From positions 1 through 29,410 of the IMG/VR virus record IMGVR_UViG_3300023109_002187: a stretch of 29,410 nt of DNA; one strand, written 5' to 3'. Made by a program: the position numbers and the translations under genes. The DNA comes from a virus. The stretch's first letter is position 1. Each line of letters starts with the position of its first letter. The notes beneath the pieces were generated by a model that searched no databases, was not told the origin of the DNA, and saw nothing but the letters and a program-made list of their open reading frames with translations. Shown here in pieces: positions 1-29,410 of this stretch.

Positions 1-2
1 TT

Positions 3-890
3 GATGATTTCGTTTATGACCCAAATGCTGGGACTGGGAAGCTGGGATTACGTGCGACATTGGGAACAGTACGCTATGCGTCTGGAGCAATTGCAAAGAA
101 CAGCAGAAGAAACGTCAGCATCAAAACACCGTCAGCAACGATAGGTGTACGCGGTACTGATTTCGTTATGGTGGTTGATGAAATAGGTGGCACGATGGTT
201 ACATTATTACCATCGTGTTCCATCGACTCCCTTGGAAAAACTAACTGTGTAACCGGTGAAATATCAGTTGAGTCTGACACCGGGTTTGTTATTATGAATA
301 AAGCCTTTCAAGCAACAATAGTAAAAAGTAGATGGACAAAACCAACTAAACCATTATTCTTGGCACTTAATGAAAGTGATATAACAAACCTTTTAATTTT
401 AAGAAAGAAAAAACCTTTATTTGAAGAAGATGGTGAGCCATTGGAACAAATGACAGATTTCCTAGACATAGATTTCTTAAACTTTGACGGTTTGGATGTT
501 GATGTTTTAACCGATAGTATTAAAGACATATGGTTAACCGAGTTTGATTTAAGAGATAGTGATTATTATCTCGGTGAACTATTACACGATATGGTTGAAC
601 AATTAAACATTGCATTAATGCGTAGGTTAATGTCAGAATTAGATGGGCAGAATGCCGAGTTCTTTAGCTTTAGAGAAGAAGGTTATGATCCCGTAACAAG
701 AATTACTTTAAACCGACAAGATCCTAGTTGGATTTTTGAAAGAGACGATAGTGGTTATTATCACCACCTAAGAATATATGTGGAGCAGCAATATGGATAT
801 ACGATTAATATCCAACAACAGGACGAGTATGTTTGGGATTACCGTCTTGGCGTTGGTAATAATAATATTGACATCATCCAAATCAAATAG
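3..890 (+). CDS. FecR-domain protein with curlin-like C-terminal tail, 5'-partial
   Basis: The reading frame is already open at base 3, so the gene starts upstream of the window; the TTG at 60 is an internal codon. The first ~100 visible residues match the FecR fold: a DDFVYDP start, the segment ASGAIAKNS, then TPSATIGVRGTDF, the family's most characteristic block. FecR domains are usually periplasmic and occur in signalling or surface proteins. The rest is acidic and unrecognised up to the last ~30 residues, where two curlin-like strands appear (YTINIQQQ and GNNNIDIIQIK). The downstream curlin-repeat gene starts inside this gene (62-base overlap, different frame), so the two are probably translated together. 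A direct iron-signalling role is unlikely because no ECF sigma factor or TonB receptor is nearby. Family assignment is firm; function is unknown. Confidence 0.82.
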   Translation, partial: DDFVYDPNAGTGKLGLRATLGTVRYASGAIAKNSRRNVSIKTPSATIGVRGTDFVMVVDEIGGTMVTLLPSCSIDSLGKTNCVTGEISVESDTGFVIMNKAFQATIVKSRWTKPTKPLFLALNESDITNLLILRKKKPLFEEDGEPLEQMTDFLDIDFLNFDGLDVDVLTDSIKDIWLTEFDLRDSDYYLGELLHDMVEQLNIALMRRLMSELDGQNAEFFSFREEGYDPVTRITLNRQDPSWIFERDDSGYYHHLRIYVEQQYGYTINIQQQDEYVWDYRLGVGNNNIDIIQIK

Positions 891-1665
891 TGGACCAAAT
901 GAAGTCTATATGTATCAATCAGGTGACAACTTTACGTTGACCATCACCCAAGATGGCAGTCAAAATTATATTACTGGTATAAGTGGACAGACTACAGGTA
1001 TTGAAGGTGATAGCAATACAATTGATATGGTACAGGTAGGTCAGTATCATGGTATCGCAGGAATGTTAGATGGTGATAACAACAACATAGATTTTTATCA
1101 AGGTGGCGGCGGTGACAGCGGAATGATTACTGCAATGGTAACAGGTGATAATAATAACTTAACGGTATGGCAAGGTAAACACGCGGATGGTACAACTGAT
1201 TTATCAGAAGGTGGTGACCATACCGCAACAATTACAATTAGCGGAAATTATAATGATATTAAATCAGCGCAGACAGATCAACAAAGTACAGGTTATGGCA
1301 GGCATGAATTAACAGCAGAAATTTCTGGTAATAGCAACGATGTTGAAATGACTCAAAGAGGAAATCAAACGCATCTTTTAGACATTAATATTTCAGGTAC
1401 TGGGAATGATGTTACAGCTTATCAGAAAGGCAGTGGCGGACAAAAAACTGCTGACATTGATGTTGCTGGCAACTATAATGTAATTGATTTAAACCAACGT
1501 GGAATGAATTCTGCATCAGCAACCATTGATGTAGAAAGCATATATGGTCCTGCCTATAATGTAACAGTTAGCCAACAAACCGACACCTCTTCTAAATCAT
1601 TTAGTCTATCTGGCGTTTGCACAAACCCAAATGGGTGTGTTGTAAGTGTCGAGCAACACAATTAG
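829..1665 (+). CDS. Secreted curlin-repeat (CsgA/CsgB-like) protein
   Basis: The 278-residue product starts with a hydrophobic signal segment (MFGITVLALVIIILTSS) followed by about 8-10 degenerate repeats of the curlin type, G-x-x-N-x-[IVL]-x-x-x-Q-x-G. Examples are EGDSNTIDMVQVG, DGDNNNIDFYQGG, SGNSNDVEMTQRG and AGNYNVIDLNQRG, spaced about 22-35 residues apart. In CsgA and CsgB such repeats stack into a beta-solenoid that forms extracellular amyloid fibres. I chose the ATG at 829 over the in-frame ATG at 778 because it directly precedes the signal segment and has GGACGAG just upstream; 778 would extend the overlap with the FecR gene to 113 bases. No CsgG secretion pore is visible in the window. 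The fold is well supported. Whether it forms fibres, or decorates the virion or the infected cell, is unknown. Confidence 0.85.
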   Translation: MFGITVLALVIIILTSSKSNSGPNEVYMYQSGDNFTLTITQDGSQNYITGISGQTTGIEGDSNTIDMVQVGQYHGIAGMLDGDNNNIDFYQGGGGDSGMITAMVTGDNNNLTVWQGKHADGTTDLSEGGDHTATITISGNYNDIKSAQTDQQSTGYGRHELTAEISGNSNDVEMTQRGNQTHLLDINISGTGNDVTAYQKGSGGQKTADIDVAGNYNVIDLNQRGMNSASATIDVESIYGPAYNVTVSQQTDTSSKSFSLSGVCTNPNGCVVSVEQHN

Positions 1666-1673
1666 GAGAATCA

Positions 1674-2024
1674 ATGGATTTAATTTTAGGTTTGGCTTTG
1701 TCAACACACTTAGGTCTTTCCCAATCTTATAATGAAATTCATCCTCATATAAGAATATCAAATGATAAATATATCGCAGGCGCATATTACAATAGCGTCG
1801 AAAATTTGAGTATATACTCAGGAATAAAATATAGTTATGGTGACATTGCAATAGAAGGAGGATTGGCTACAGGTTATAACCCTCACCCAATAGCTCCTTA
1901 TGGTAGGGTAACTTACGATTACGTGGATAATATAAAATTATTTGGGACAACGGCATATGAATCCAACGGTAAAGAAGTCCGTGGAGGAATTGTCTTAGGA
2001 ATAGAATTTATATTAAATCCATAG
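1674..2024 (+). CDS. Small beta-barrel-like surface protein, unknown function
   Basis: This 116-residue protein lies 8 bases after the curlin-repeat gene. The ATG at 1674 is preceded by AGGAG (1664-1668), which decides against the longer in-frame start at 1617 inside the curlin gene. The N-terminus (MDLILGLALSTHLGLS) is hydrophobic and may act as a signal. The rest alternates polar and hydrophobic residues with many Tyr and Gly (IAGAYYNS, IYSGIKYSYGD, EGGLATGY), the pattern of a small outer-membrane beta-barrel. It ends in IEFILNP. The next gene starts 8 bases further on with its own AGGAG. I do not recognise a named family. Position suggests it works with the curlin-like and outer-membrane proteins on either side. 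Confidence 0.7.
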   Translation: MDLILGLALSTHLGLSQSYNEIHPHIRISNDKYIAGAYYNSVENLSIYSGIKYSYGDIAIEGGLATGYNPHPIAPYGRVTYDYVDNIKLFGTTAYESNGKEVRGGIVLGIEFILNP

Positions 2025-2032
2025 GAGAAGCA

Positions 2033-4036
2033 ATGAAACATTTACTATTAACAACTGCATTAGTCATACCAAGCTGGGCTTTTGCCGATACTTCAAGCTT
2101 ACAAACATCATCCCACGGTTTATTAGAAAACCAATGGGTTAAAGCTGGGATCAATAAAGACTCAGGTACATTTGGTTCTGGTAGTCGTACATCACCTGGC
2201 CTGTTATTTGACCCTGAAGGTTCAGGTACATTTAATCCTAGTTATGATTATCTGACACCAGGTACACCGTTTGACGGTCAATCACTAAAAGTAGATGGTG
2301 TAAATAAAACAAATAACAACTCAGGTGGTGCAACTATTGTTGACTCCGATGGTTTGACCGATGGCACAGATAGTTTAACATGGAGCGGTGACGTTGATGT
2401 TGATGGCGGTACATGGAATGTTGAAAATAAATTTATATTGGAAGATGATAAACCATATATTGATGTTGAAACAAAAATCACCGCAGGTTCTGATGCAGAT
2501 ACTGTAGCATATGGCAAATTTATTGATCCCGACTCACAAGGTATGCCAGGAGATAGTTCATCAACAGATAACGTACTTGGGTATTCAGGTGTTCCTGATA
2601 CAAACATTGCCTTTTCAGAAGCAACTGTTTCAAAATATGCGTTAGGTGTTTATTCAACAGATACGAATACAACCGCAGGTGTTAACAGATGGTCATCAGA
2701 TGCAGCTTCATATGACGGAACAAGTTATACTGACGATGATGGCAATCCTGTAAACTACGGAAATTCTGATGATACGATTGGTATTAGCTGGTCTTGGACT
2801 GGTGTATCAGCAGGTGATATTCTTTCAGCAAAGTATGCTTATATCTTTGGCCCATCAGCATTTGATGCACTTGATGATGCAGTCGATGGTGGAGCAGGTG
2901 GTGGAACTGCGGGTGAATTACCTTCAGGTTGGTCACTTGATGATGTTGGATCAGCAACAGACGCAGCGGAAAGCGGTGGAGAACCAGCAGCACCAACAGT
3001 TGTAAGTACTGCAACCGAAACTATTACTTCAACATCAGAAGCAGTAAGCACAACACTACCTGTTTTAACTGGTGCAATCACAACTCACGATGCATCAACT
3101 GATGCTGGTGTGCAAACTATTGACCGTGAAACTACTACAACGGTAACAACTCCGACAAATGTAACAACTACAAGCTTTGTCAGAACTACTGATACTATGA
3201 GTGATGGCAGTGAAGTTGTTACGGACGGTGAATCAACATCAACTACAGTTGTTCGTAATGATGCTGTTGTAACTGTAACGGATCCCGGATCATTCGTTGG
3301 CCGTATGGATCAAGCATCACAATTAATCGGATTAAATACACACCGTAATTTAGATATAGCGGATGGTGTATCAATAGGTCGGATTAATCATTCAATGGGT
3401 GACAACTATGAAGCAACATCATCTGTTGTTGGCATTGGCCATACATTTGTAACTGAAGATGCATTGAGATTGAGCCTAGGTATTAATAGAATTGATACTA
3501 CAATGTCAGAAGGTGGCGATGGTAAAGCATTAACAAATGCCGTAACTGTTGAGGCAGGAAAAGCAATTGAAGATAAAGACATTACCGTTGTAGGACGAGT
3601 AAACATGGCTAAATCTGATATTGAATATTCAAGAACAATTGGTACTTTTTCTGCGGCAGGTGAAACATCAGCTTCTGACGTTTCTGCCGGGCTAACAATT
3701 GAAAAATCAACTGGTGCTATTAGACCTTTCGGTGGATTAACTATCGGTAAATCAAGCACTGATGGTTGGACTGAAACTGGTGACATTCAAGCTGTAATAA
3801 CAACAGCTGAATCAGACACTGCATACCGTTATGGCACAATAGGTTTCAATATTGACGAAGGACCATTCAGCGCTACATTTAGTAAAAACATTGGCGACAA
3901 TGATGCTGCTAATATAAGAATTGGTTTTGAACAAGAAATAAATGAATATGCTATTGTTGGTGTAGATTATAACAGAACTTTGGATGAAGATAATTCAAGT
4001 AATTATTTCTCAGCAGGTGTTAAGATACGGTTTTAA
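2033..4036 (+). CDS. Autotransporter-like outer-membrane protein (secreted passenger plus C-terminal barrel)
   Basis: The 667-residue product has a clear signal peptide (MKHLLLTTALVIPSWAFA, cleavage expected after Ala18). Residues ~19-290 are rich in Gly, Asp, Ser and Thr, as in extracellular beta-rich passengers. Residues ~300-420 form a low-complexity Thr/Ser/Val linker. Residues ~423-667 alternate in the manner of a beta-barrel and end in KIRF, with the terminal Phe typical of outer-membrane proteins recognised by the BAM machinery. The architecture resembles type V autotransporters, but I cannot name a family. AGGAG at 2023-2027 supports the start. Its stop codon overlaps the stop of the converging SIS gene (TTAA, 4033-4036). 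It would insert into the host outer membrane, perhaps for surface display, exclusion or secretion. Confidence 0.8.
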   Translation: MKHLLLTTALVIPSWAFADTSSLQTSSHGLLENQWVKAGINKDSGTFGSGSRTSPGLLFDPEGSGTFNPSYDYLTPGTPFDGQSLKVDGVNKTNNNSGGATIVDSDGLTDGTDSLTWSGDVDVDGGTWNVENKFILEDDKPYIDVETKITAGSDADTVAYGKFIDPDSQGMPGDSSSTDNVLGYSGVPDTNIAFSEATVSKYALGVYSTDTNTTAGVNRWSSDAASYDGTSYTDDDGNPVNYGNSDDTIGISWSWTGVSAGDILSAKYAYIFGPSAFDALDDAVDGGAGGGTAGELPSGWSLDDVGSATDAAESGGEPAAPTVVSTATETITSTSEAVSTTLPVLTGAITTHDASTDAGVQTIDRETTTTVTTPTNVTTTSFVRTTDTMSDGSEVVTDGESTSTTVVRNDAVVTVTDPGSFVGRMDQASQLIGLNTHRNLDIADGVSIGRINHSMGDNYEATSSVVGIGHTFVTEDALRLSLGINRIDTTMSEGGDGKALTNAVTVEAGKAIEDKDITVVGRVNMAKSDIEYSRTIGTFSAAGETSASDVSAGLTIEKSTGAIRPFGGLTIGKSSTDGWTETGDIQAVITTAESDTAYRYGTIGFNIDEGPFSATFSKNIGDNDAANIRIGFEQEINEYAIVGVDYNRTLDEDNSSNYFSAGVKIRF

Positions 4037-4473
4037 ATCTCGGGTAACACCGCACCGCATTGTTCCATGATCTTATAGAGTGTGAGTAAGGCCTCACACT
4101 CAAATTCATGGTAGGTTTTTTGATTTAAAACAATTGTATCTAATTCAGGAATGTCCATAGGGGCTATTACAATCTTATGAGGTAATAGCCCACCGACATT
4201 AACAAGACCTTCAACAATAGGAGAGTTTGCTCTTGTTGTAATACCGATGATACAGTCAGCAAAAGTTCCGTATTCATATATCCATCTTTTATGCCAACCT
4301 TCATCACCACCCAAAGCGGTTAGGTGAACGGCGTCAGGTGCAAAGCAATGTTTGCCAAGATGCCTTGTCATATCAGATGCACCGTGTTGAGCAATAGCAA
4401 GGTTTCCGCCATTGCCTACAATAGCAATCTTTGGTGAATGAGATATCTTTTGAATAATTTTAGGATCTATCAA
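4033..4473 (-). CDS. gmhA: GmhA-like SIS-domain protein (phosphoheptose isomerase family)
   Basis: This 146-residue protein carries the phosphosugar-binding SIS signature GNGGNLAIAQHGASDM near residues 21-36, as in GmhA, which converts sedoheptulose-7-phosphate to heptose-7-phosphate for LPS inner core and other heptose sugars. A second sugar-binding stretch (TTRANSPIVEG) and a C-terminal His/Glu pair in YHEFECEALL also resemble GmhA. It is shorter than the usual ~190 residues and lacks most of the N-terminal helices. The start is TTG at 4473, with GGAGGAA just upstream on the minus strand; no ATG fits better. It overlaps the end of the KdsB-like gene by 14 bases, so the two are translationally linked. 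The substrate may not be canonical sedoheptulose-7-phosphate. Confidence 0.82.
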   Translation of the reverse strand: MIDPKIIQKISHSPKIAIVGNGGNLAIAQHGASDMTRHLGKHCFAPDAVHLTALGGDEGWHKRWIYEYGTFADCIIGITTRANSPIVEGLVNVGGLLPHKIVIAPMDIPELDTIVLNQKTYHEFECEALLTLYKIMEQCGAVLPEI

Positions 4474-5149
4474 GGTATTCCTCCACCAATTTTATATCGT
4501 CTGGTACATCAACCGCGGGTGTACGTTCGTCAATCATATATGGTATAACATCAACCTTTCCTATAAATGCCAATGTGTCTAATCCTTTATGAGCATTTAC
4601 TAAATTCAAATCGTATTCTGGGTAATCCATAATTGTACCGAGATCGTAAGCATACAAGCCATTGATTCCAACAAGATTAGGACTATCCATTAATTCACGG
4701 TCAGGTGTTCGTGTTAAGTAAACAATTTTACCGTTACTAATTACAGCTTTGACGACGTTAATATTACTTCGTTCTTCGTCTGTTAATGGGTAACAACATT
4801 GAACCATTCCTTCTTGTAATTCCAACATCTTTCGGATAACACCTGAAATCATATCAGCAGTCACGCAAGGTTCATCACTTTGAAGATTAACAAAATAATC
4901 GGCATCTGTTTGAATAACCGCCTCAGCAACTCGAGATGTACAAGTGTTATGGATCTTTTTTGTTTTAATTAAATTGGGTGCCCAAATGTCATCGTATTCA
5001 TCCGCAGCAACCCAAACATTTTTTAAGTCAGTACATTGTTTTGCGTTATCAATACAATGATTAAGAACAGCCTTACCGTTTACTTCGGCAAATATTTTGC
5101 TTGGAAAGCGAGTTGATCCTGTTCTTGCTGGTATAATACAATCAATCAT
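4460..5149 (-). CDS. kdsB: KdsB-like CMP-Kdo synthetase / cytidylyltransferase
   Basis: The 229-residue product matches sugar-CMP transferases of the KdsB type. It has an N-terminal nucleotide-binding motif IPARTGSTRFPSK (compare IPARxxSxRxPxK in KdsB), then AADEYDD, a conserved LQSDEP core (usually VQGDEP) that places the catalytic Asp, and a late conserved TPAVDVPDD segment. KdsB activates Kdo with CTP for LPS inner-core synthesis; related enzymes activate other acidic sugars. The length is near the usual ~245. AAGGAA precedes the ATG at 5149. The start overlaps the end of the upstream gene (ATGA-type junction) and the 3' end overlaps the SIS gene, so this is the middle gene of a three-gene operon. 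Kdo is the best guess for the substrate; a related nonulosonate is possible. Confidence 0.88.
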   Translation of the reverse strand: MIDCIIPARTGSTRFPSKIFAEVNGKAVLNHCIDNAKQCTDLKNVWVAADEYDDIWAPNLIKTKKIHNTCTSRVAEAVIQTDADYFVNLQSDEPCVTADMISGVIRKMLELQEGMVQCCYPLTDEERSNINVVKAVISNGKIVYLTRTPDRELMDSPNLVGINGLYAYDLGTIMDYPEYDLNLVNAHKGLDTLAFIGKVDVIPYMIDERTPAVDVPDDIKLVEEYLDRS

Positions 5150-5972
5150 TTAATATATTCCTTATTTCCTCGGGTTTCAAATATGATATAGTTGAATACT
5201 CGATAGGTGCGGATACAGCTTCATTTCTGAATTGTAATATTTTGTTTGGGCTGATACCCATAAATCCCCACGTGTCGGGTAAGTTATCATAATAGTGCGT
5301 ATATTTGGTCGTCGGTGTTCCCGTCATTCCTGCGGTGTAATAAGTACCTCCATCATAACTAAAATGGTGTGTGGTTGATAACAGTGTATCATAGATTTCT
5401 TCCATTGTCAAGGAGTAATGAATAAATTTTACGTCATACCCAAACTCGTGAGCAATTTTAGTTATGTTCGGTAATATTGTTTTTTCTTTTTCCATTAATC
5501 CGCCGATCCGTCGCTTTGACATTAACGGTTCAGATTTATGAATTGAAATGAATTTACCTTTCTTATTCCATTGTTTTTTAAACGGCCATAATTGATTTAC
5601 CGTCCAAGGTGTTGCAACTGTCTGTTTTTGTTCGTACCGATATATGCTTACAATCATTCCATTCTTAGGAGGTAGCATATTATTAAGAAACCATTTCATA
5701 ACATCATATGAGGTTTCGGCATTACTAGGTTTACGTTTAAATGGATTGACAAATTGTTCAGGCCACATAATAGAAACACGATATGGTCCTTGAGCATAGT
5801 CTTCATCTGATATTAATTGTGCTTTAAAGAAAACATCACTTAATAAACACATAATAGTGCAGTGAGCATGGGCTGTATCAGCACAAAAACGTACTATGTG
5901 GGATGATGTTGGCAGTGAAATGCTTTTATTATTTTCACAACCTATATAAATAGTTTCAATCAGATTTGCCAT
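5142..5972 (-). CDS. Putative glycosyltransferase-like protein of surface-sugar operon
   Basis: First gene of the three-gene minus-strand operon. I do not recognise a definite family. The C-terminal stretch FSYDGGTYYTAGMTGTPTT (about residues 224-242 from this start) resembles the 'DGG/DSG...A...GTP' nucleotide-sugar-binding region of GT-B enzymes such as GT9 heptosyltransferases, and the neighbours handle heptose and Kdo, so a sugar-transfer role is plausible but weakly supported. Two in-frame ATGs exist, at 5984 and 5972. The TATAAATA late box at 5996-6003 would start transcription close to 5990, leaving almost no leader for 5984, so I prefer 5972. Neither has a clear Shine-Dalgarno sequence. 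It overlaps the cytidylyltransferase gene by 8 bases. Confidence 0.7.
   Translation of the reverse strand: MANLIETIYIGCENNKSISLPTSSHIVRFCADTAHAHCTIMCLLSDVFFKAQLISDEDYAQGPYRVSIMWPEQFVNPFKRKPSNAETSYDVMKWFLNNMLPPKNGMIVSIYRYEQKQTVATPWTVNQLWPFKKQWNKKGKFISIHKSEPLMSKRRIGGLMEKEKTILPNITKIAHEFGYDVKFIHYSLTMEEIYDTLLSTTHHFSYDGGTYYTAGMTGTPTTKYTHYYDNLPDTWGFMGISPNKILQFRNEAVSAPIEYSTISYLKPEEIRNILND
5945..5952 (+). promoter_or_regulatory. T4-type late promoter box for the cyclase operon
   Basis: Exact TATAAATA, the T4 late -10 box read by gp55-RNA polymerase. It lies inside the start of the divergent minus-strand gene, 64 bases before the Cys-rich small gene at 6016, and faces the adenylate cyclase operon. A phage gp55 homologue is encoded at 21530-22042. 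Confidence 0.6.
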
Positions 5973-5995
5973 GATATAATCCATTAATAAAATAG

Positions 5996-6003
5996 TATTT
6001 ATA
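5996..6003 (-). promoter_or_regulatory. T4-type late promoter box for the sugar operon
   Basis: TATAAATA on the minus strand, directly upstream of the gene starting at 5972. With the plus-strand box at 5945-5952 it forms a divergent late-promoter pair whose transcripts would overlap by a few tens of bases. Confidence 0.6.
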
Positions 6004-6015
6004 AGGAGTATAAGA

Positions 6016-6138
6016 ATGATAGGTCCAGAGAGATTTTGTAAAAAGTGTGGTCACCGCTGCCACTGTTATGCATCAGACTGTAAAGAATGCGTCAATGATG
6101 TTTGCACAAGCTGCGACTGCAAGAAAGATAAAGAATGA
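6016..6138 (+). CDS. 40-residue Cys-rich, probable zinc-binding protein
   Basis: A short gene with AAGGAG at 6003-6008, seven bases before its ATG, and a stop that overlaps the next start as ATGA (6135-6138). The 40 residues contain nine cysteines (positions 8, 11, 15, 17, 22, 25, 30, 33, 35) and two histidines (13, 16), arranged as repeated CxxC and CxC motifs (CKKC, CHC, CKEC, CTSC, CDC). This suggests a small structural zinc-binding or metallothionein-like protein; I cannot assign a family. Its tight coupling to the adenylate cyclase gene means the two are made together. Coding status rests on the ribosome-binding site, the overlap and the regular cysteine pattern. Confidence 0.72.
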   Translation: MIGPERFCKKCGHRCHCYASDCKECVNDVCTSCDCKKDKE

Positions 6139-8180
6139 AAAAGATTTTATTATCTCCTATATGGAGCATATTATTGTTAGGGTTATTTGCTTGGCTGCAT
6201 ACTATTAATCCTTCATTCATTGAAAGTTTAAGATTACGGTATTTTGACCAGCTTATTGTAAATCAAGAGGTTGTTCAAAATAACATTTATTCAGTAAACA
6301 TTGATGAAGATGCAATAACCGAATATGGACAATGGCCATTTCCTAGACACGTATATTCAGAATTTATTATAGACCTATACAATAGAGGTGCAGGTCTTGT
6401 TGTTTTAAATATTCTTATGTCTGAACCTGATAGATCCGGCGGAGATGAAGACCTTGCTATAACTATGCAGCAAGTACCAATAATTTTAACTATGCTTGGA
6501 GCTGAGGAGAACAAAAATGAAGCGATTAATCCAGGAGCCTCTATTATTAATAGCGATTATATTTCTCTCATTCCAAGTGTACCTGGGATTATCGCTAACA
6601 TTAATGAGCTTGAAACTAATGCAGTGGGGTCGGGAATCATCAACACATTCCCAGAGATCGACGGGGTTACCCGACGAGCACCGTTGGTATTCGAGTCCGG
6701 GGGGAACCTCTTCCCTAATGTCACCCTTGAGGTATTGCGAGTCCTTGCCGGAGACCCATCCTTCCAAATCAAGTTGTCGCCGCTCGGGGTTGATAAATTA
6801 AGAATACCACAGTTTGGAATGATACCAACAAATGAGGTTGGCGAGGTATGGATAGATTGGTCTCAAGGTTATCAATCAGAATCAATAATGAATTTGCCAG
6901 ATGATTTAGGAGGTGCTGTTGTATTTGTTGGCCCAACAGCTGCAGGTACTATTCAACCTATATCAACGGCGATTGGTGGAGTATATCCACAAGAGATACA
7001 AGCAGTAATGCTTGGTACTGTATTTAACGAATCAAACATTACACGGCACGCCGACGCAAAAGCATGGGGTGAACTTGCTGCTTTAATTGTAGCAGGTTTA
7101 TTAATAATTGGTTTATCCTATTGGACTTTTGTAGGTATCGGTGTATTCGTATTAACGATTGGCGGCTTTATAGGAGGGTCTATCTATGTATTCCAAAGTT
7201 CAAATTTGCTTATTGACGGTATTACTATTTCTGCTATGCTATTCCTCGTTGGTAGTTTACGGTATATTGTAAAATTCGTTGATGAGTTTTTACAGAAACA
7301 AGCAATCAAGAAACAATTTGCTGGTTACGCTTCACCAACAGTTGTTAAATTATTACAAGAAAACCCATCATTAGTTAAAGATGGTATGAAAAAAGAAGTT
7401 AGTATTGTGTTTAGTGATCTGCGTGGATTTACTCCATTGGGTGAGTCATTCGGTGATGATGTTGCAGGATTAACTCGAATAATGAATGGATATATGGATG
7501 CAATCACAGAACCAGTTTTAGATGCTGATGGGATGATTATTAAGTATATTGGAGACGCTTCAATGCATATCCATAATGCCCCAATCAACGACCCAAGCCA
7601 TGCATCTAACTCCGTTCTTACAGCATTTAAAATGTTAAAGGCAGTGGACAGATTTAATGAAGAAGTTATTATACCTGATGGCCGTCCTCCTGTTGGTATG
7701 GGCGCTGGCATCAACACAGGGTTGGGATACATTGGTGAAATGGGAAGTACTAAACGTCATTCATATGATGTCCTTGGAGACGCTGTAAGTACAGCAGCTC
7801 GTGTAGAAAGTAAATGTAAAGAATACGGACAAGTATTATTAATCGGTGAAGCAACATATGAGCAAACTAAAAACGAATTCTTCTACCTCAAAATAGATGA
7901 TTTGCAAGTAAAAGGTAAAAGCGTAGGTTTAAGTATTTACACTGCACTTGATGATATAAGACAACCTTGGTATTCAGCACAGAAAAAACACCAAGAAATG
8001 TATGATGCATACCAAGCACAAGATTTTGATAAAGCCATTGAAATATGCGGCATATTACATGGACACTTTGATAATAAGATGGATGGATATTATGATATGT
8101 GGAAAGAAAGATGTGAATATATGAAAACACAAGACCTTCCAAATGATTGGAATGGTGTATTCATAGCGACAACTAAATGA
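6135..8180 (+). CDS. Membrane CHASE2-domain class III adenylate cyclase
   Basis: This 681-residue protein has the complete CHASE2-3TM-cyclase architecture. After an N-terminal membrane segment (about 8-24), residues ~30-300 form the extracytoplasmic CHASE2 sensor (RYFDQL, NIDEDAITEYGQWPFPR, NILMSEPD, FPEIDGVTRRAPL). Three membrane segments follow (about 312-332, 333-353, 358-379), then a class III catalytic domain at ~420-605. The metal-binding aspartates are present (Asp428 in FSDLRGFT, Asp474 in KYIGDA), as are the ATP-selecting Lys470 and Asp545 and the transition-state Arg556. The usual ribose-contacting Asn is Ser552. The catalytic part should lie in the cytoplasm and make cAMP. The gene overlaps both neighbours by ATGA. 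Residues ~163-219 are encoded by an unusually GC-rich patch (6621-6790). A membrane cyclase is unexpected in a phage. Confidence 0.92.
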   Translation: MKKILLSPIWSILLLGLFAWLHTINPSFIESLRLRYFDQLIVNQEVVQNNIYSVNIDEDAITEYGQWPFPRHVYSEFIIDLYNRGAGLVVLNILMSEPDRSGGDEDLAITMQQVPIILTMLGAEENKNEAINPGASIINSDYISLIPSVPGIIANINELETNAVGSGIINTFPEIDGVTRRAPLVFESGGNLFPNVTLEVLRVLAGDPSFQIKLSPLGVDKLRIPQFGMIPTNEVGEVWIDWSQGYQSESIMNLPDDLGGAVVFVGPTAAGTIQPISTAIGGVYPQEIQAVMLGTVFNESNITRHADAKAWGELAALIVAGLLIIGLSYWTFVGIGVFVLTIGGFIGGSIYVFQSSNLLIDGITISAMLFLVGSLRYIVKFVDEFLQKQAIKKQFAGYASPTVVKLLQENPSLVKDGMKKEVSIVFSDLRGFTPLGESFGDDVAGLTRIMNGYMDAITEPVLDADGMIIKYIGDASMHIHNAPINDPSHASNSVLTAFKMLKAVDRFNEEVIIPDGRPPVGMGAGINTGLGYIGEMGSTKRHSYDVLGDAVSTAARVESKCKEYGQVLLIGEATYEQTKNEFFYLKIDDLQVKGKSVGLSIYTALDDIRQPWYSAQKKHQEMYDAYQAQDFDKAIEICGILHGHFDNKMDGYYDMWKERCEYMKTQDLPNDWNGVFIATTK

Positions 8181-8485: not shown

Positions 8486-8676
8486 GTAAACAATGCAAGG
8501 CACACTTAAAAGACGCCAATGAAACCGCGCTTCAACATATGGGTAAAGCGTTATTGATTGCAGTAAAGCTGCAGTTATTGGTTCCTGTTGTAATTATACA
8601 CAGCGTAGCGCCAAGATTTTTTACTAAAACCGCAACAACAGTAATGAAAGATATTTTAAAAGGTAGAGAGAAATGA
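8479..8676 (+). CDS. DUF6356-like small membrane protein
   Basis: The 65-residue product starts at the ATG at 8479, overlapping the preceding stop by 7 bases; the longer in-frame start at 8401 would lie deep in the previous gene. The pattern HLKDANETALQHMGKAL, then a hydrophobic segment (ALLIAVKLQLLVPVVII), then HSVAPRFFTKTA matches my memory of the DUF6356 family: a His near the start, E-T-x-x-x-H, one membrane span, then H-x-x-x-P-x-x-F. Function of that family is unknown. The stop overlaps the lipase start (ATGA at 8673-8676). Confidence 0.72.
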   Translation: MLSKQCKAHLKDANETALQHMGKALLIAVKLQLLVPVVIIHSVAPRFFTKTATTVMKDILKGREK

Positions 8677-9413
8677 TAGAAAAATGCGCCACCATGGCCC
8701 AGTGTGCTCAAATAGCATATATGGACGGTAAAGAAGCAAAAGCTGAATATAAAAAGTTAGGTTATACACAACATAAATTTATTGAAAAGGATGGTGCTCA
8801 GGTACACCTTATTCAGAATAAGAACGAAATTGTTTTATGTTTCCGTGGTACAGAGCCTGGTGAATTTTCTGATATTAAAGCAGATCTAAATGCTATGCCC
8901 GACAAAGCAAACAACGGATCAGGTCTTGTCCATAACGGATTTCAAACAGAAGTTGATAAAGTATGGGTTGCAATTGAAGAAGCATTGGCAAAGGCAAAAC
9001 CTAAAGACCTATTCATATGCGGACATTCATTAGGTGGTGCAATGGCAACAATTGCAACATCTCGTTTGGCTGATAGTCCTTGGAATCCTGTGGCATTATA
9101 TACATATGGATCACCGAGAGTTGGTACTCGTAAATTCGTCAAGAGTTTTAAAAATGTTACTCACTATCGCCATGTCAATAATAATGATTTGGTAACAACT
9201 GTACCGTTTGCACTTATTGGCTATAGACATCATTGCCCACCACGTTATATTAATTACTATGGTAATATTAGAAAAATGTCGAAGTGGCAAAGAATTAAAG
9301 ACAAGTGGCGCGGCCGTTGGAGAGCATTGAAAAAAGGTATGCCTTTTGATGGTGCATATGACCACGGTATGAACCATTACTGTAAATACACGGAGCAAAA
9401 TAATGATAGGTAG
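8673..9413 (+). CDS. Class 3 lipase-family alpha/beta hydrolase
   Basis: This 246-residue protein is a Lipase_3-type serine hydrolase. It has the oxyanion-region FRGTEP (57-62), the nucleophile elbow GHSLGG with Ser119, the strand YTYGSPRVG (143-151) that is diagnostic of class 3 lipases, a catalytic Asp in NNDLVTTVP (Asp172) and a C-terminal His in DHGMNHY (His231 or His235). The triad is therefore complete. There is no signal peptide, so it should act from the cytoplasm on membrane lipids or acylglycerols. The start overlaps the upstream gene by ATGA. A Lys/Arg/Trp-rich stretch (residues ~200-222) could bind anionic membranes. Its place among membrane proteins suggests membrane remodelling or a contribution to lysis; both are inference. 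Confidence 0.88.
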   Translation: MIEKCATMAQCAQIAYMDGKEAKAEYKKLGYTQHKFIEKDGAQVHLIQNKNEIVLCFRGTEPGEFSDIKADLNAMPDKANNGSGLVHNGFQTEVDKVWVAIEEALAKAKPKDLFICGHSLGGAMATIATSRLADSPWNPVALYTYGSPRVGTRKFVKSFKNVTHYRHVNNNDLVTTVPFALIGYRHHCPPRYINYYGNIRKMSKWQRIKDKWRGRWRALKKGMPFDGAYDHGMNHYCKYTEQNNDR

Positions 9414-9705
9414 AATGTTGGAAGACACGTTATGGATCTACACCGCAATCGGCGGATCTATAATTGGCGCAGTTGTACTTGCTTATTTGAGTACAACACG
9501 CATTGGACTATGGGGCTATGCTAAATTTGATTTAATGATTGATTACTTAGTTGAGCGCTGGGGTTTAACCTGGCTTGAACAACCTGAAGACGCATGGCGA
9601 AAGAAGTATCCAAAAATCACTCAAAAGATTGATGATATGGAGCGCCGGCTAAATGCTGTTGAAGCAAAAGCTGGTGTTAAAATCCTAGGAGGAAAAAAGA
9701 AATGA
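9403..9705 (+). CDS. Small membrane protein with coiled-coil tail
   Basis: A 100-residue protein with one membrane span near residues 10-30 (LWIYTAIGGSIIGAVVLAYL) and a charged helical C-terminus ending in a short coiled coil (ITQKIDDMERRLNAVEAKAG). CGGAG (9391-9395) sits at good spacing from the ATG at 9403, which overlaps the lipase stop by 11 bases. Family unknown. The layout of one anchor plus a cytoplasmic coiled coil suggests a membrane-tethered scaffold or partner of a neighbouring product. Confidence 0.75.
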   Translation: MIGRMLEDTLWIYTAIGGSIIGAVVLAYLSTTRIGLWGYAKFDLMIDYLVERWGLTWLEQPEDAWRKKYPKITQKIDDMERRLNAVEAKAGVKILGGKKK

Positions 9706-9860
9706 ATTGGATTAAAAACAGACTTAAGGAAAGAACAACTTGGGACGGCGGTGCATTGGTAGCACTCGGTATGTTGGTTCTCTTCATGGCACCATTGGCA
9801 AAAATTGCTGCAGGCATTGCAATTGCCTGGGGCGCATGGACAATTTGGAAATCTGAATAA
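9702..9860 (+). CDS. 52-residue conserved-type membrane protein
   Basis: A short gene overlapping the previous stop by ATGA (9702-9705), with a perfect AGGAGG at 9687-9692. The product begins with a basic amphipathic stretch (MNWIKNRLKERTTWDGG) followed by a long hydrophobic segment (about 17-49) that can form two short spans or a hairpin around Pro31. From memory, very similar small proteins occur in marine T4-like phages; this could be checked by a protein search. It is the last gene of the plus-strand cyclase operon. It ends two bases before the converging oxygenase gene, leaving no room for a terminator between them. Confidence 0.78.
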   Translation: MNWIKNRLKERTTWDGGALVALGMLVLFMAPLAKIAAGIAIAWGAWTIWKSE

Positions 9861-9861
9861 G

Positions 9862-10617
9862 TTAGGCTTTCCGCCAATGTTCAAATGAAGGCAGTGTTCT
9901 ACTATATTCGGCGACATTTGGTTTTCTTACAATCATAACATCTCCTGCCACACAAAACCTACTTAGTTTTAAATCAGTTTTTGTTTTGAAACTTTGGAGG
10001 CCAGGTCCATCGTCACCTTCCTGTGCAACAATATCATGGTTAAGGTTTGATGGAAATATTAGTAGAACACCGTCCTTTACTGGGAATTGCCATGTTCTTG
10101 CATTTGCATAAGTCCAATTCCCACCTACGTGTTCACCAAAGAATTTTGAATAGGGCTCATTAGGATGAGCATCACGTGGATCATAGAACCTAATATCACG
10201 GTGCCTTTGAATATTTACGTGTGGATAATACACCCATGAGATATGATTCTCAGCATGGTTGTGGATGTTTATGGATGCTTTATCGGTTACATTAAAGAAT
10301 GCTTTTGTTAGAAACAAATCAATCTTCATTCGGTTCACACCGATTGTCTCAAGGTACAGGTTCAAACAATTTGGTAATACTGTATCAAACCATTCCGCTA
10401 AGGCAGGATCATTGTGTACTTGCTCATAACCGATAAAGTCATGAGATACACCACTTTCCTTTGAATGTTTAAGATAAGCATCAAACCACAAATCTTTTTC
10501 TTTTTGAGTTACAGGTTTTCTAACTTCTGTGATTGTGGTTGGAAAAATAAAGTGATTTTGAAATTCACCTTCTTGAGTTGTCGGAAACTTTTCCTCATAT
10601 CTAAATTGATTTGCCAT
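9862..10617 (-). CDS. 2-oxoglutarate/Fe(II)-dependent oxygenase
   Basis: The 251-residue protein fits the putative 2OG-Fe(II) oxygenase family common in marine myoviruses. The iron-site region NIHNHAENHISWVYYP (118-133) aligns with the family's HxHPxxxLSGVYY block (His119/His121), the distal His lies in FPSNLNHD (His194), and Arg220 in LSRFCVAGD would hold the 2OG carboxylate. These enzymes hydroxylate proteins, sugars or small molecules; the target here is unknown. Its start overlaps the end of the GalE-like gene by 17 bases and its 3' end converges on the cyclase operon. A role in decorating surface glycans or virion protein is plausible from context. Confidence 0.85.
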   Translation of the reverse strand: MANQFRYEEKFPTTQEGEFQNHFIFPTTITEVRKPVTQKEKDLWFDAYLKHSKESGVSHDFIGYEQVHNDPALAEWFDTVLPNCLNLYLETIGVNRMKIDLFLTKAFFNVTDKASINIHNHAENHISWVYYPHVNIQRHRDIRFYDPRDAHPNEPYSKFFGEHVGGNWTYANARTWQFPVKDGVLLIFPSNLNHDIVAQEGDDGPGLQSFKTKTDLKLSRFCVAGDVMIVRKPNVAEYSRTLPSFEHWRKA

Positions 10618-11479
10618 GTTTTCCCATTTCTAACTTATACTGATCGTGGCACATATCACCGAGCGATTTTGTCAGGTTACATAATTTTGATGGATTATCA
10701 ACTACAGATTTAACAGCATCACCGGCACGACGGCCGACAATTTTTCTATTCATTGATTTACCGGTAATTTCTTCCATAGTATCTAAGACTTCGTGGACAG
10801 TCCATCCTTGATTACTTCCAAGGCATTCATATGGAGTATTGGATGGTCCAGATATAGCAGCGTTGAGTAAAGAATTACAGAGGTCGTTAACGTGAATGTA
10901 ATCACGTACGCAAGTCCCATCCCGTGTTTCATAGTCATCTCCATATACTTCTACGTGTTGCCGTATGCCTGCAGCAACTTCCGCTCCAATTCTAATGAGG
11001 TGAGAACTATCCCCAAGCTGACGATTGATACCATCACTCCCACTAACATTAAAGAAACGAAAAATAGTGTACCCATCAGCTTTCTCCTTTATAATATCTT
11101 CAGCACCAACCTTTGAGCGAGCATATGGTGATGCCATTTCAAAAGCCGATGATGTAGATGCGAATATGAAATTATCAGTACGTAATTTTTGAACCGCATT
11201 GAGCGTACCCATTGTATTGATACGATAATATGCTGATGGTTCTTTTAATGATTGTGGAACAACACTACGACCTGCAAGGTGAATTACTGCATCACCCCAA
11301 CCCATAAGCCAATGATCCATAATATCCTGTACCCAAAACTTGTCACAGTATTTAGAAACATCATTGCTTTCGCCGTGGAAATTGTTATCAAACCCATGGA
11401 CTTCATATCCATGTTCTTTTGCCAATCGGCAAAAATGTGATCCGATATAACCGGACGCACCTGTCACTAATAACTTCAT
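10601..11479 (-). CDS. galE: NAD-dependent sugar-nucleotide epimerase, GalE-like
   Basis: An extended short-chain dehydrogenase of about 292 residues. It has the Rossmann motif TGASGYIGSH at the N-terminus, an HLAGRSVV segment, the Ser-rich catalytic strand (ASTSSAF), the Tyr-x-x-x-Lys pair in YARSK, and the GalE-typical VRDYIHVNDL. UDP-glucose 4-epimerase interconverts UDP-glucose and UDP-galactose; related enzymes act on UDP-GlcNAc or produce dTDP sugars, so the substrate is a guess. It is shorter than the usual ~338. Two ATGs are possible (11485 and 11479); I prefer 11479, which puts the Rossmann strand right at the start. Neither has a Shine-Dalgarno sequence. A CATAAATA at 11491-11498 resembles a late box with one mismatch. 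Confidence 0.87.
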   Translation of the reverse strand: MKLLVTGASGYIGSHFCRLAKEHGYEVHGFDNNFHGESNDVSKYCDKFWVQDIMDHWLMGWGDAVIHLAGRSVVPQSLKEPSAYYRINTMGTLNAVQKLRTDNFIFASTSSAFEMASPYARSKVGAEDIIKEKADGYTIFRFFNVSGSDGINRQLGDSSHLIRIGAEVAAGIRQHVEVYGDDYETRDGTCVRDYIHVNDLCNSLLNAAISGPSNTPYECLGSNQGWTVHEVLDTMEEITGKSMNRKIVGRRAGDAVKSVVDNPSKLCNLTKSLGDMCHDQYKLEMGKHGKSI

Positions 11480-11493
11480 AACCATACTAATAT

Positions 11494-11709: not shown

Positions 11710-12003
11710 CTATACAATTAAGCTTGATTGTGGTGCAACCAAACCGCTCGTCATTTGTCGGTATGCGTTAGCAACCTCTTCATTTGTTTTAACCACTAAT
11801 GAAATGTTATATAATACACATTCCTTAGGATCGTGTTCACCTGTCATAGCAATTCCGTTTGAAAAACCCATGCCTTGTTCACTCATTGTGAGGAACCTAG
11901 GATTTTTTAGCTCAACTGTTGAACCATCTTGTGATACTAGTTTACCTACGTATTCACCGTTTTGTGTAATTACTGTTACAATATCATTAGCTTTAAGCGC
12001 CAT
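11710..12003 (-). CDS. Small beta-rich conserved protein, unknown function
   Basis: A 97-residue protein starting MALKANDIVTVITQNGEYVGKLV. The alternating short strands and Gly turns resemble an Sm- or SH3-like small barrel, but this is inference from pattern only. I chose the ATG at 12003, which has AAAGGTGAG upstream; the GTG nine bases earlier is embedded in that ribosome-binding site. It overlaps the end of the upstream gene by 11 bases. Similar small proteins are known to me from marine T4-like phages, without function. Confidence 0.75.
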   Translation of the reverse strand: MALKANDIVTVITQNGEYVGKLVSQDGSTVELKNPRFLTMSEQGMGFSNGIAMTGEHDPKECVLYNISLVVKTNEEVANAYRQMTSGLVAPQSSLIV

Positions 12004-28823: not shown

Positions 28824-29410
28824 ATGGAACTACTCACAATGTGGAGTCTTATCGGATTCCTGCTTGCTGCATACGCAGTAATCGCCAATGATTCAGTACA
28901 AACTCTCGGTACTTGGATGGCATCAAACAATGAGAGATTTAATTTTAAAGTATTATGGGCCGCAGCATCTGCGGTTTTGTTATATACACTCTGGTATGGG
29001 TGGTATATGAATGGTGGTGATATATCCTATGGCCGTTTGAATAAGATCCCATTTCAAGATGTGCAATGGTATCATGCTGCAGCACCTGCTATTCTTGTAG
29101 CATTAACACGAATGGGTGTACCTGTTTCAACATCATTCCTAGTCTTATCAGTATTTGCTTCAACCTTTGTGTTGGAAAAGATGCTTATGAAATCAATTAT
29201 GGGTTATGGTGTAGCCGCGGCATTTGCTTATGCTGTATGGTTTGCTATCCATAAGTACTTTGGTAAATGGTATGATGAAACTCAGCCAGTATCTGAAAGT
29301 AATAAGAAATTTTGGCGTGTTGCCCAGTGGGTAGCAACTGGTGGATTATGGTTTACTTGGTTATCGCATGATATTGCTAACATCGCGGTATTCCTACCAC
29401 GAGTAATTCC
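28824..29410 (+). CDS. PiT-family (SLC20-like) phosphate transporter, 3'-partial
   Basis: The frame runs open from the ATG at 28824 (AAAGGAG upstream) to the window end, giving 195 residues. It is a polytopic membrane protein with PiT features: an N-terminal ANDxxxxxGT (residues 21-30, compare GANDVANAxGT of PiT carriers), PVSTSFLVLS in the middle (compare PVSTTHxxxS), and a second inverted-repeat signature HDIANIAVFLP near the cut end. At least five hydrophobic spans are visible. PiT carriers import inorganic phosphate with H+ or Na+. The first signature has AND but a Ser where Val is usual. Phosphate supply would support phage DNA synthesis, a familiar accessory theme in marine phages. Confidence 0.75.
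   Translation, partial: MELLTMWSLIGFLLAAYAVIANDSVQTLGTWMASNNERFNFKVLWAAASAVLLYTLWYGWYMNGGDISYGRLNKIPFQDVQWYHAAAPAILVALTRMGVPVSTSFLVLSVFASTFVLEKMLMKSIMGYGVAAAFAYAVWFAIHKYFGKWYDETQPVSESNKKFWRVAQWVATGGLWFTWLSHDIANIAVFLPRVI

Follow-up and report, generated by a model that had tools for sequence, protein, structure and literature searches.

A CHASE2–class III cyclase in the curli cassette of marine phages and the exchange of its Asp/Ser catalytic domain

The window studied here is the whole stretch of 29,410 nucleotides held in IMG/VR virus record IMGVR_UViG_3300023109_002187. This 29.4-kb record carries T4-type genes (tail tube, UvsY, late sigma factor, SbcC/SbcD-like nuclease subunits, DNA polymerase and topoisomerase II subunits) and, at 6135–8180 on the plus strand, a gene for a 681-residue CHASE2–class III nucleotidyl cyclase. 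Here, we report that this cyclase is the last gene of a phage curli (type VIII secretion, T8SS) cassette with the order csgF–csgG–curlin–FecR–curlin–cyclase. Its catalytic domain is of an Asp/Ser type, with Ser in place of the canonical transition-state Asn, and has been swapped between lineages of CHASE2. We consider it fairly probable that the protein is the inner-membrane sensor-cyclase of the cassette, monitoring the periplasm as curli are secreted and signalling via cyclic AMP (cAMP).

Part of this system has been described before. The most relevant report is that of Wittmers et al. (2022; PMC9599517). It places CsgF, CsgG, CsgA/B and FecR together with an adenylate cyclase in a curli/T8SS cluster of podo- and myo-pelagiphages, and gives trees, an alphaproteobacterial origin and metatranscript evidence of expression for the cluster. 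An earlier reading of the window, made from the sequence only, had held that no well-described phage system of this kind was known; the published FecR/adenylate-cyclase association overturns that claim. The main texts of Zaragoza-Solas 2020 (PMC7029224) and Buchholz 2022 (PMC9004378) treat the curli cluster and raise the ideas of sibling capture, uptake and a lysis pore; the word cyclase is absent from both, as are 'CHASE' and 'catalytic' from the main text of PMC9599517. Neither a phage CHASE2 domain nor an active-site change was found in the literature searched, which left subscription papers largely outside and excluded supplements. The phage FecR/adenylate-cyclase system is therefore already published; what is new is that the catalytic domain is of the Asp/Ser type, that it is exchanged as a module, and that SAR11 lacks an evident reader in the genomes sampled. 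The orphan 'phage cyclase' of the window is now placed in a widespread, published and functionally unexplained phage curli system.

A cyclase at the end of the phage curli cassette

The gene runs exactly as the sequence-only reading had it, from an ATG at 6135 to the last base of the stop codon at 8180, and both of its domains score above the Pfam cut-offs. The CHASE2 domain (PF05226, E 9.3e-31), predicted to be extracytoplasmic, spans residues 23–323 (6201–7103, plus strand) with 107.8 bits against a cut-off of 26.3. The class III catalytic domain (PF00211, Guanylate_cyc, E 9.4e-18) spans residues 419–596 (7389–7922, plus strand) with 64.9 bits against 21.9. PHROG 35576 (phrog_35576), a phage family of unassigned function, matches residues 1–664 (E 5.2e-170), and an NCBIfam search found no family for the cyclase. 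A Foldseek comparison of the structure model with the PDB returned adenylyl and guanylyl cyclases, the best being 4yut (OaPAC, E 6.2e-12), with CyaB, CyaC and Cya2 also among them; for CyaB (3r5g_A) the template-modelling score by target length is 0.84. By fold and profile, the protein is a class III nucleotidyl cyclase.

The model of the 681-residue protein (mean predicted local distance difference test score, pLDDT, 86.1; predicted template-modelling score 0.59) runs from an N-terminal helix (9–24) through an alpha/beta CHASE2 part to three long helices and then the cyclase; it is least certain at residues 537–546 beside the active site, where pLDDT falls below 50. The three long helices, assigned by DSSP to residues 306–327, 331–356 and 362–395 (7050–7319, plus strand), would form the membrane spans and the linker to the cyclase. 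Hydropathy peaks begin at residues 1–6, 308–335 and 357–358. The three spans named by the sequence-only reading are thus found after CHASE2, but an N-terminal anchor had been omitted, and the protein probably has four. One predicted span before the domain and three after it is the layout of a CHASE2 sensor, and would place CHASE2 outside and the cyclase inside.

The link to curli genes was followed from both ends of the cassette. The search of viral genomes proposed with the sequence-only reading confirmed 168 relatives, of which 80 were kept; together with the isolated phages Melnitz and HTVC008M they make up 82 phage loci. At least 8 kb of upstream sequence was available for 52 of these, and in 51 of them, including L003, which is among the closest relatives of the window, csgF, csgG, a curlin and FecR precede the cyclase on its own strand; in L080, the one exception, these four genes are on the opposite strand. 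Starting from FecR (158 relatives found, 79 loci kept), the cyclase lies downstream on the same strand in 44 of the 47 loci with at least 6 kb of downstream sequence, on the other strand in two, and is absent from the stretch in one (L200). The two sets overlap in many contigs, and near-copies (such as L002, L003, L004 and L007) are counted as separate rows, here and in the other counts. Searches of 50 whole records from the 82 loci found CsgG in 41; in the other nine the cyclase starts no more than 3.3 kb from a contig end. No CsgF or CsgG match was found within the window, where the cassette is hidden because the contig is cut inside the FecR gene.

The cyclases of HTVC008M (I899_gp019, YP_007517885.1; 35.9% identity over 85%) and Melnitz (MelnitzEXVC044M_104, QZI94833.1; 49.6% over 96%) are homologous to that of the window lengthwise and stand after csgF–csgG–curlin–FecR–curlin. 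Unlike these, the lineage of the window (the window, L003, L004 and L007) has its cyclase separated from the curli genes by three reverse genes and by genes of outer-membrane type. The cassette spans very different phages, since the DNA polymerases of three other cassette-bearing contigs, L053 (300 kb), L061 (193 kb) and L064 (246 kb), are only distantly related (26–31% in pieces). A chimera of host and phage DNA, which would have undermined the claim that the gene is phage-encoded, is rejected because the same arrangement recurs on independent contigs, including the 221-kb L003 (99% identity to the window in DNA polymerase), and relatives occur in isolated phages.

The catalytic site and the exchange of the catalytic domain

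In the alignment, Asp428, Lys470, Asp474, Asp545 and Arg556 lie where the sequence-only reading had placed them. Two metal-binding Asp residues (D428 and D474) and an ATP-selecting Lys/Asp pair (K470 and D545) are present, as in class III enzymes; D428, K470, D474 and R556 occur in all 83 aligned phage sequences and D545 in 82. The active site had nevertheless been called intact, which holds for the metal, adenine-selecting and Arg residues but not for the transition-state Asn–Arg pair, in which Arg556 is kept and Asn is replaced by Ser552 (codon 7788–7790, plus strand; alignment of phage, cellular and solved cyclases). Position 552 is Ser in 82 of the 83 phage sequences, the sole exception being HTVC008M, which has Asn552 with Ser545; its catalytic domain is thus of a Ser/Asn type and lacks the C-terminal tail, whereas those of the window and Melnitz are of the Asp/Ser type. 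The position is Asn in the five solved cyclase chains shown, of 42 matched, and in 34 of 34 cellular rows, all of which have Ser or Thr at 545 (L085 and L107 are one gene counted twice). Among the cyclases of the FecR set, 59 are readable, with 48 Asp/Ser, 11 Ser-or-Thr/Asn and no mixed pairs (six more are cut before the motif), so that two catalytic types share one cassette and both positions change together.

The change raises the question of activity. The Asp/Ser type could be a cyclase with weak catalysis or none, retained in the cassette as a structural part or as a regulator that binds nucleotides, as might be expected from the near-universal replacement of Asn in the phage rows and from the lack of a receptor for cyclic nucleoside monophosphates (cNMPs) in 31 phage records and, long open reading frames (ORFs) aside, in 147 Pelagibacterales genomes. 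We regard this as unlikely. Both metal-binding Asp residues, the Lys and the Arg are invariant, which a dead enzyme would not need, and Asn-type cyclases (HTVC008M and others; the 11 of 59 above) occupy the same cassette, so an active-looking cyclase is tolerated there. There is also a precedent (PMC4215837): Ma1120 from Mycobacterium avium resembles the window cyclase in having the Lys/Asp pair and the conserved Arg without the transition-state Asn, and differs in being a mycobacterial protein with Ala where the window has Ser. It is an active natural class III adenylyl cyclase, and introducing Asn lowers its activity. Loss of the Asn therefore does not imply loss of activity; judged by this analogy, the residue is highly conserved but not strictly defining for class III cyclases, and catalysis by the Asp/Ser-type phage cyclase is plausible.

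The sequence-only reading had also suggested interference with cyclic-nucleotide defence signalling, for which we found no evidence. The cyclase domain is hit by PADLOC models of PycC, at best with 52.1 bits (E 1.3e-14), as would suit a Pycsar-like cyclase making cyclic CMP or cyclic UMP, or a decoy against such defence; but all four PADLOC matches are to PycC and cover the cyclase domain only, a result that any class III cyclase may give, and the purine-selecting Lys470/Asp545 pair is kept. The hallmark of PycC is a cyclase beside a cyclic-pyrimidine effector gene. Here, the neighbours are curli and FecR genes, among which no Pycsar effector was recognised, and we consider this explanation very improbable.

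The Asp/Ser domain has moved between sensors. When the catalytic domains of 58 rows are placed in a tree without the two diagnostic columns, the 21 Asp/Ser rows form one clade with a Shimodaira–Hasegawa-like approximate likelihood-ratio test (SH-aLRT) support of 100, whereas on the CHASE2 tree the same rows require five changes, at least three of them forced by well-supported branches. The 25 cellular rows stay on one side of a branch in both trees (support 87 and 94). Both trees come from a quick search of chosen rows with SH-aLRT as the sole support measure, and several long branches were flagged. Pairwise identities show the same disagreement: the window and Melnitz share 34% in CHASE2 and spans but 76% in the cyclase, whereas Melnitz and HTVC008M share 54% and 37%, respectively. 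The catalytic domain has thus been exchanged between CHASE2 lineages.

Exchange was also recent in the lineage of the window, as codons 30–380 are 96.2% identical in nucleotides to L002, L003, L004 and L007 and codons 400–600 of the same gene only 70.5%. Over codons 1–380, the comparison with L003 gives a nonsynonymous rate (dN) of 0.010 and a synonymous rate (dS) of 0.136, so dN is low where measurable, i.e. on the sensor side only. The deepest divergence covers residues 401–600 (7335–7934, plus strand), with residues 601–640 intermediate. CHASE2 identity reaches 90% or more in 74 pairs; these four, which represent one event, are the only ones to fall below 85% in the cyclase part. In a scan against L003 per 300 bases, the flanks are 97–98% identical at 5101–6900 and 96–99% at 8701–11100. 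A clean replacement of the catalytic domain alone describes this only partly, because 1–5100 is also mosaic (80–97%), with dips at 1201, 2101 and 4801. None of these is as deep as the dip over the cyclase, which is exceeded only by the bin at 12001 in the indel-ridden end of the compared stretch. The cyclase exchange thus sits in a region where recombination is general.

Among the cells sampled, no Asp/Ser catalytic domain was found. Its motif occurs in none of 385 genomes in the class of G054, an alphaproteobacterium, while the same pattern recovers the window and 80 of the 82 phage loci, missing HTVC008M, as expected, and L039. In the phylum of G054, 165 of 398 genomes matched at E 1e-25 or better, and none of the matches listed exceeds 40% identity; this search scored at most five candidates per genome, and the class and phylum sets are samples rather than all cells. 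The 34 cellular rows were drawn from 37 cellular-assembly rows by setting aside L084, L086 and L087 as phage-like, since the cassette adjoins L084 and L087 and the catalytic domain of L086 is 84% identical to that of HTVC008M; L100 and L102 gave no cyclase match. L084 is of the Asp/Ser type, and L086 and L087 are of the Ser/Asn type. These three contigs, binned in 'Pirellulales', 'Flavobacteriaceae' and 'Pelagibacter' metagenome-assembled genomes (MAGs), are probably mis-binned phage DNA.

The nearest cellular counterparts, CHASE2–class III cyclases of Alphaproteobacteria such as that of Aestuariispira insulae (L085), resemble the window cyclase in combining CHASE2 with a cyclase at about 30% identity, and most share its C-terminal tail ending near W-D/N-G; they differ at position 545, which is Ser or Thr, and at 552, which is Asn. 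The cellular CHASE2 cyclases have no csgF, csgG or curlin beside them in 16 stretches (19 less the three phage-like ones; flanks up to 8 kb, several short). CsgF does occur in four of the 19 cellular assemblies, three of which hold the phage-like contigs, the fourth being the Nitrospinaceae MAG of L099. FecR lies near the CHASE2 gene in three of the 16 stretches: in L096 at about 2 kb on the other strand, in L099 at about 4.7 kb, and in L100 at about 500 bases from a CHASE2 ORF without a cyclase match; the stretches L107–L126 (2.6–3.9 kb) are too short to show FecR neighbours. With FecR so weakly associated with cellular CHASE2 cyclases, an ancient FecR–cyclase pair is not supported.

A putative envelope signal and its reader

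In the mechanism that we propose, the protein would be anchored in the inner membrane, its CHASE2 domain facing the periplasm. From there the domain may monitor the envelope as curlins are produced and secreted by the phage. The likeliest input would be the accompanying FecR-domain protein or unsecreted curlin. The signal would pass via the three-helix bundle to the dimeric cyclase, which would make a cyclic nucleotide, likeliest cAMP because Lys470 and Asp545 form the ATP-selecting pair. The idea that this happens late in infection found no support: the window has three copies of the T4 late-promoter motif TATAAATA, where 3.58 would be expected. The copy at 5945 on the plus strand is 190 bases ahead of the cyclase start and could drive the gene, but the count is no more than chance.

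A reader for cAMP was sought in phages and in SAR11. No cNMP-binding domain was found in the 31 phage records searched (of the 82 loci, fragments included), nor in 137 of 147 sampled Pelagibacterales genomes of unstated completeness; the sample is the order of an MAG titled Candidatus Pelagibacter, which we take as Pelagibacterales. The other ten genomes carry the domain in long ORFs unlike CRP (870 residues long in nine genomes; in the tenth, 372 residues, close to the end of a contig), and the one examined is a fusion with acyltransferase and GDSL-lipase domains. The sampled Pelagibacterales thus have no CRP-like receptor. A search for class III cyclases alone found none in 146 of the 147 genomes, the single match being the phage-like contig G055:C11 (L087), which bears the curli cassette. 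HTVC008M therefore brings a class III cyclase into a host group that, in this sample, has neither that class nor a CRP-like reader.

These results bear on the view of the sequence-only reading that the enzyme is a general host-metabolism gene raising cAMP for CRP-dependent genes, its link to curli being incidental. A class III cyclase with an ATP-selecting pair would suit such a role, and the host of the window phage, to which the Pelagibacterales result need not extend, may have CRP. A comparison of tRNAs with 299 Pseudomonadota genomes gave matches in 44, those listed being 77–86% identical with no clear host among them, and the DNA polymerase, at 41–44% identity to HTVC008M, Melnitz and the best-listed cyanophages, is too distant to name one. 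The linkage to curli genes is, however, nearly invariant in both directions, and the sampled SAR11 genomes offer no CRP; we therefore regard a general metabolic role as improbable.

Several of the findings also count against a role as the sensor-cyclase of curli secretion. The canonical transition-state Asn is absent, and enzyme activity, although plausible, is a prediction from residues, fold and precedent. The FecR–CHASE2 link is drawn from gene order in phages and is met in few cellular stretches. cAMP would have no obvious reader in SAR11, and the phage records supply none. We nevertheless keep the sensor-cyclase as the preferred reading and extend it tentatively, as a possibility that we would not yet expect to hold in full: marine phages may bring along a second-messenger branch of their own, complete from envelope to cytoplasm and serving their curli secretion, into hosts (e.g. 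SAR11) devoid of both a class III cyclase and a CRP-like receptor. In most cases this branch would use the Asp/Ser domain, so far met only in phages, as a module exchanged between phages under one conserved sensor family, and a yet-unrecognised receptor would read it. Two cultured pairs, HTVC008M/Pelagibacter with the canonical domain and Melnitz/OM43 with the Asp/Ser domain, make cyclase function and the reader of its product in a CRP-less host directly testable.

Neighbouring genes in the window

The FecR-domain protein (3–890, plus strand) has lost its 5' end at the contig end; its Pfam FecR score of 23.9 bits is just below the cut-off of 24, and it matches phrog_37870 (E 2.7e-73). FecR sigma-factor regulators have a cytoplasmic anti-sigma part and a membrane span before the FecR domain. 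This layout was not seen in the phage proteins: the FecR relatives have a signal-like N-terminus, as judged by eye, and in Melnitz and HTVC008M this is followed by PF04773 as the sole Pfam domain. A secreted partner fits these features better than an iron-response regulator. Two readings are corrected, in that the catalytic site is altered and the phage FecR looks like a secreted partner rather than the iron-response regulator to which it was compared.

The second curlin of the cassette, a curlin-repeat protein (778–1665, plus strand; Pfam Curlin_rpt, E 1e-8), matches the second curlin of Melnitz in position. In HTVC008M, the second curlin (L083:10638–11960) carries a PA14 domain (E 2.7e-6) ahead of its curlin repeats. 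Next comes a small protein related to a phage PagP-like family (1617–2024, plus strand; phrog_3600, E 1.8e-9), with a related ORF in 23 of the 52 relatives; genes of this family precede the cyclase in some of them. A large protein with a signal-like start (2033–4036, plus strand), without a Pfam family and with a related ORF in 17 of the 52, probably resides in the outer membrane. The three reverse genes (4033–5984, minus strand) encode a SIS-like protein, a cytidylyltransferase and a protein of unknown function, and the same three are found in L003, L004 and L007. The SIS-like and cytidylyltransferase pair (4033–5149, minus strand) and an epimerase at 10601–11485 are perhaps a sugar-nucleotide set for surface glycan change.

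Directly before the cyclase, a 40-residue ORF with eight Cys residues (6016–6138, plus strand), zinc-ribbon-like by eye, overlaps the cyclase start with its stop (ATGA). As a conserved part of the cassette it was rejected, since ORFs of this kind occur in L002–L007, L022 and the window, i.e. eight of 78 loci; the script counted 13, five of which (L054, L062, L063, L069 and L083) were judged to be tails of other, longer proteins. At the far end of the window, 28824–29410 (plus strand) encodes a hydrophobic membrane protein of transporter-like appearance, cut by the contig end and without a Pfam or NCBIfam match. Shortly after the cyclase lies a class 3 lipase gene (8673–9413, plus strand; Pfam E 5.9e-24); in L040, L041, L043, L044, L046 and L070, a lipase-related gene instead precedes the curli genes.

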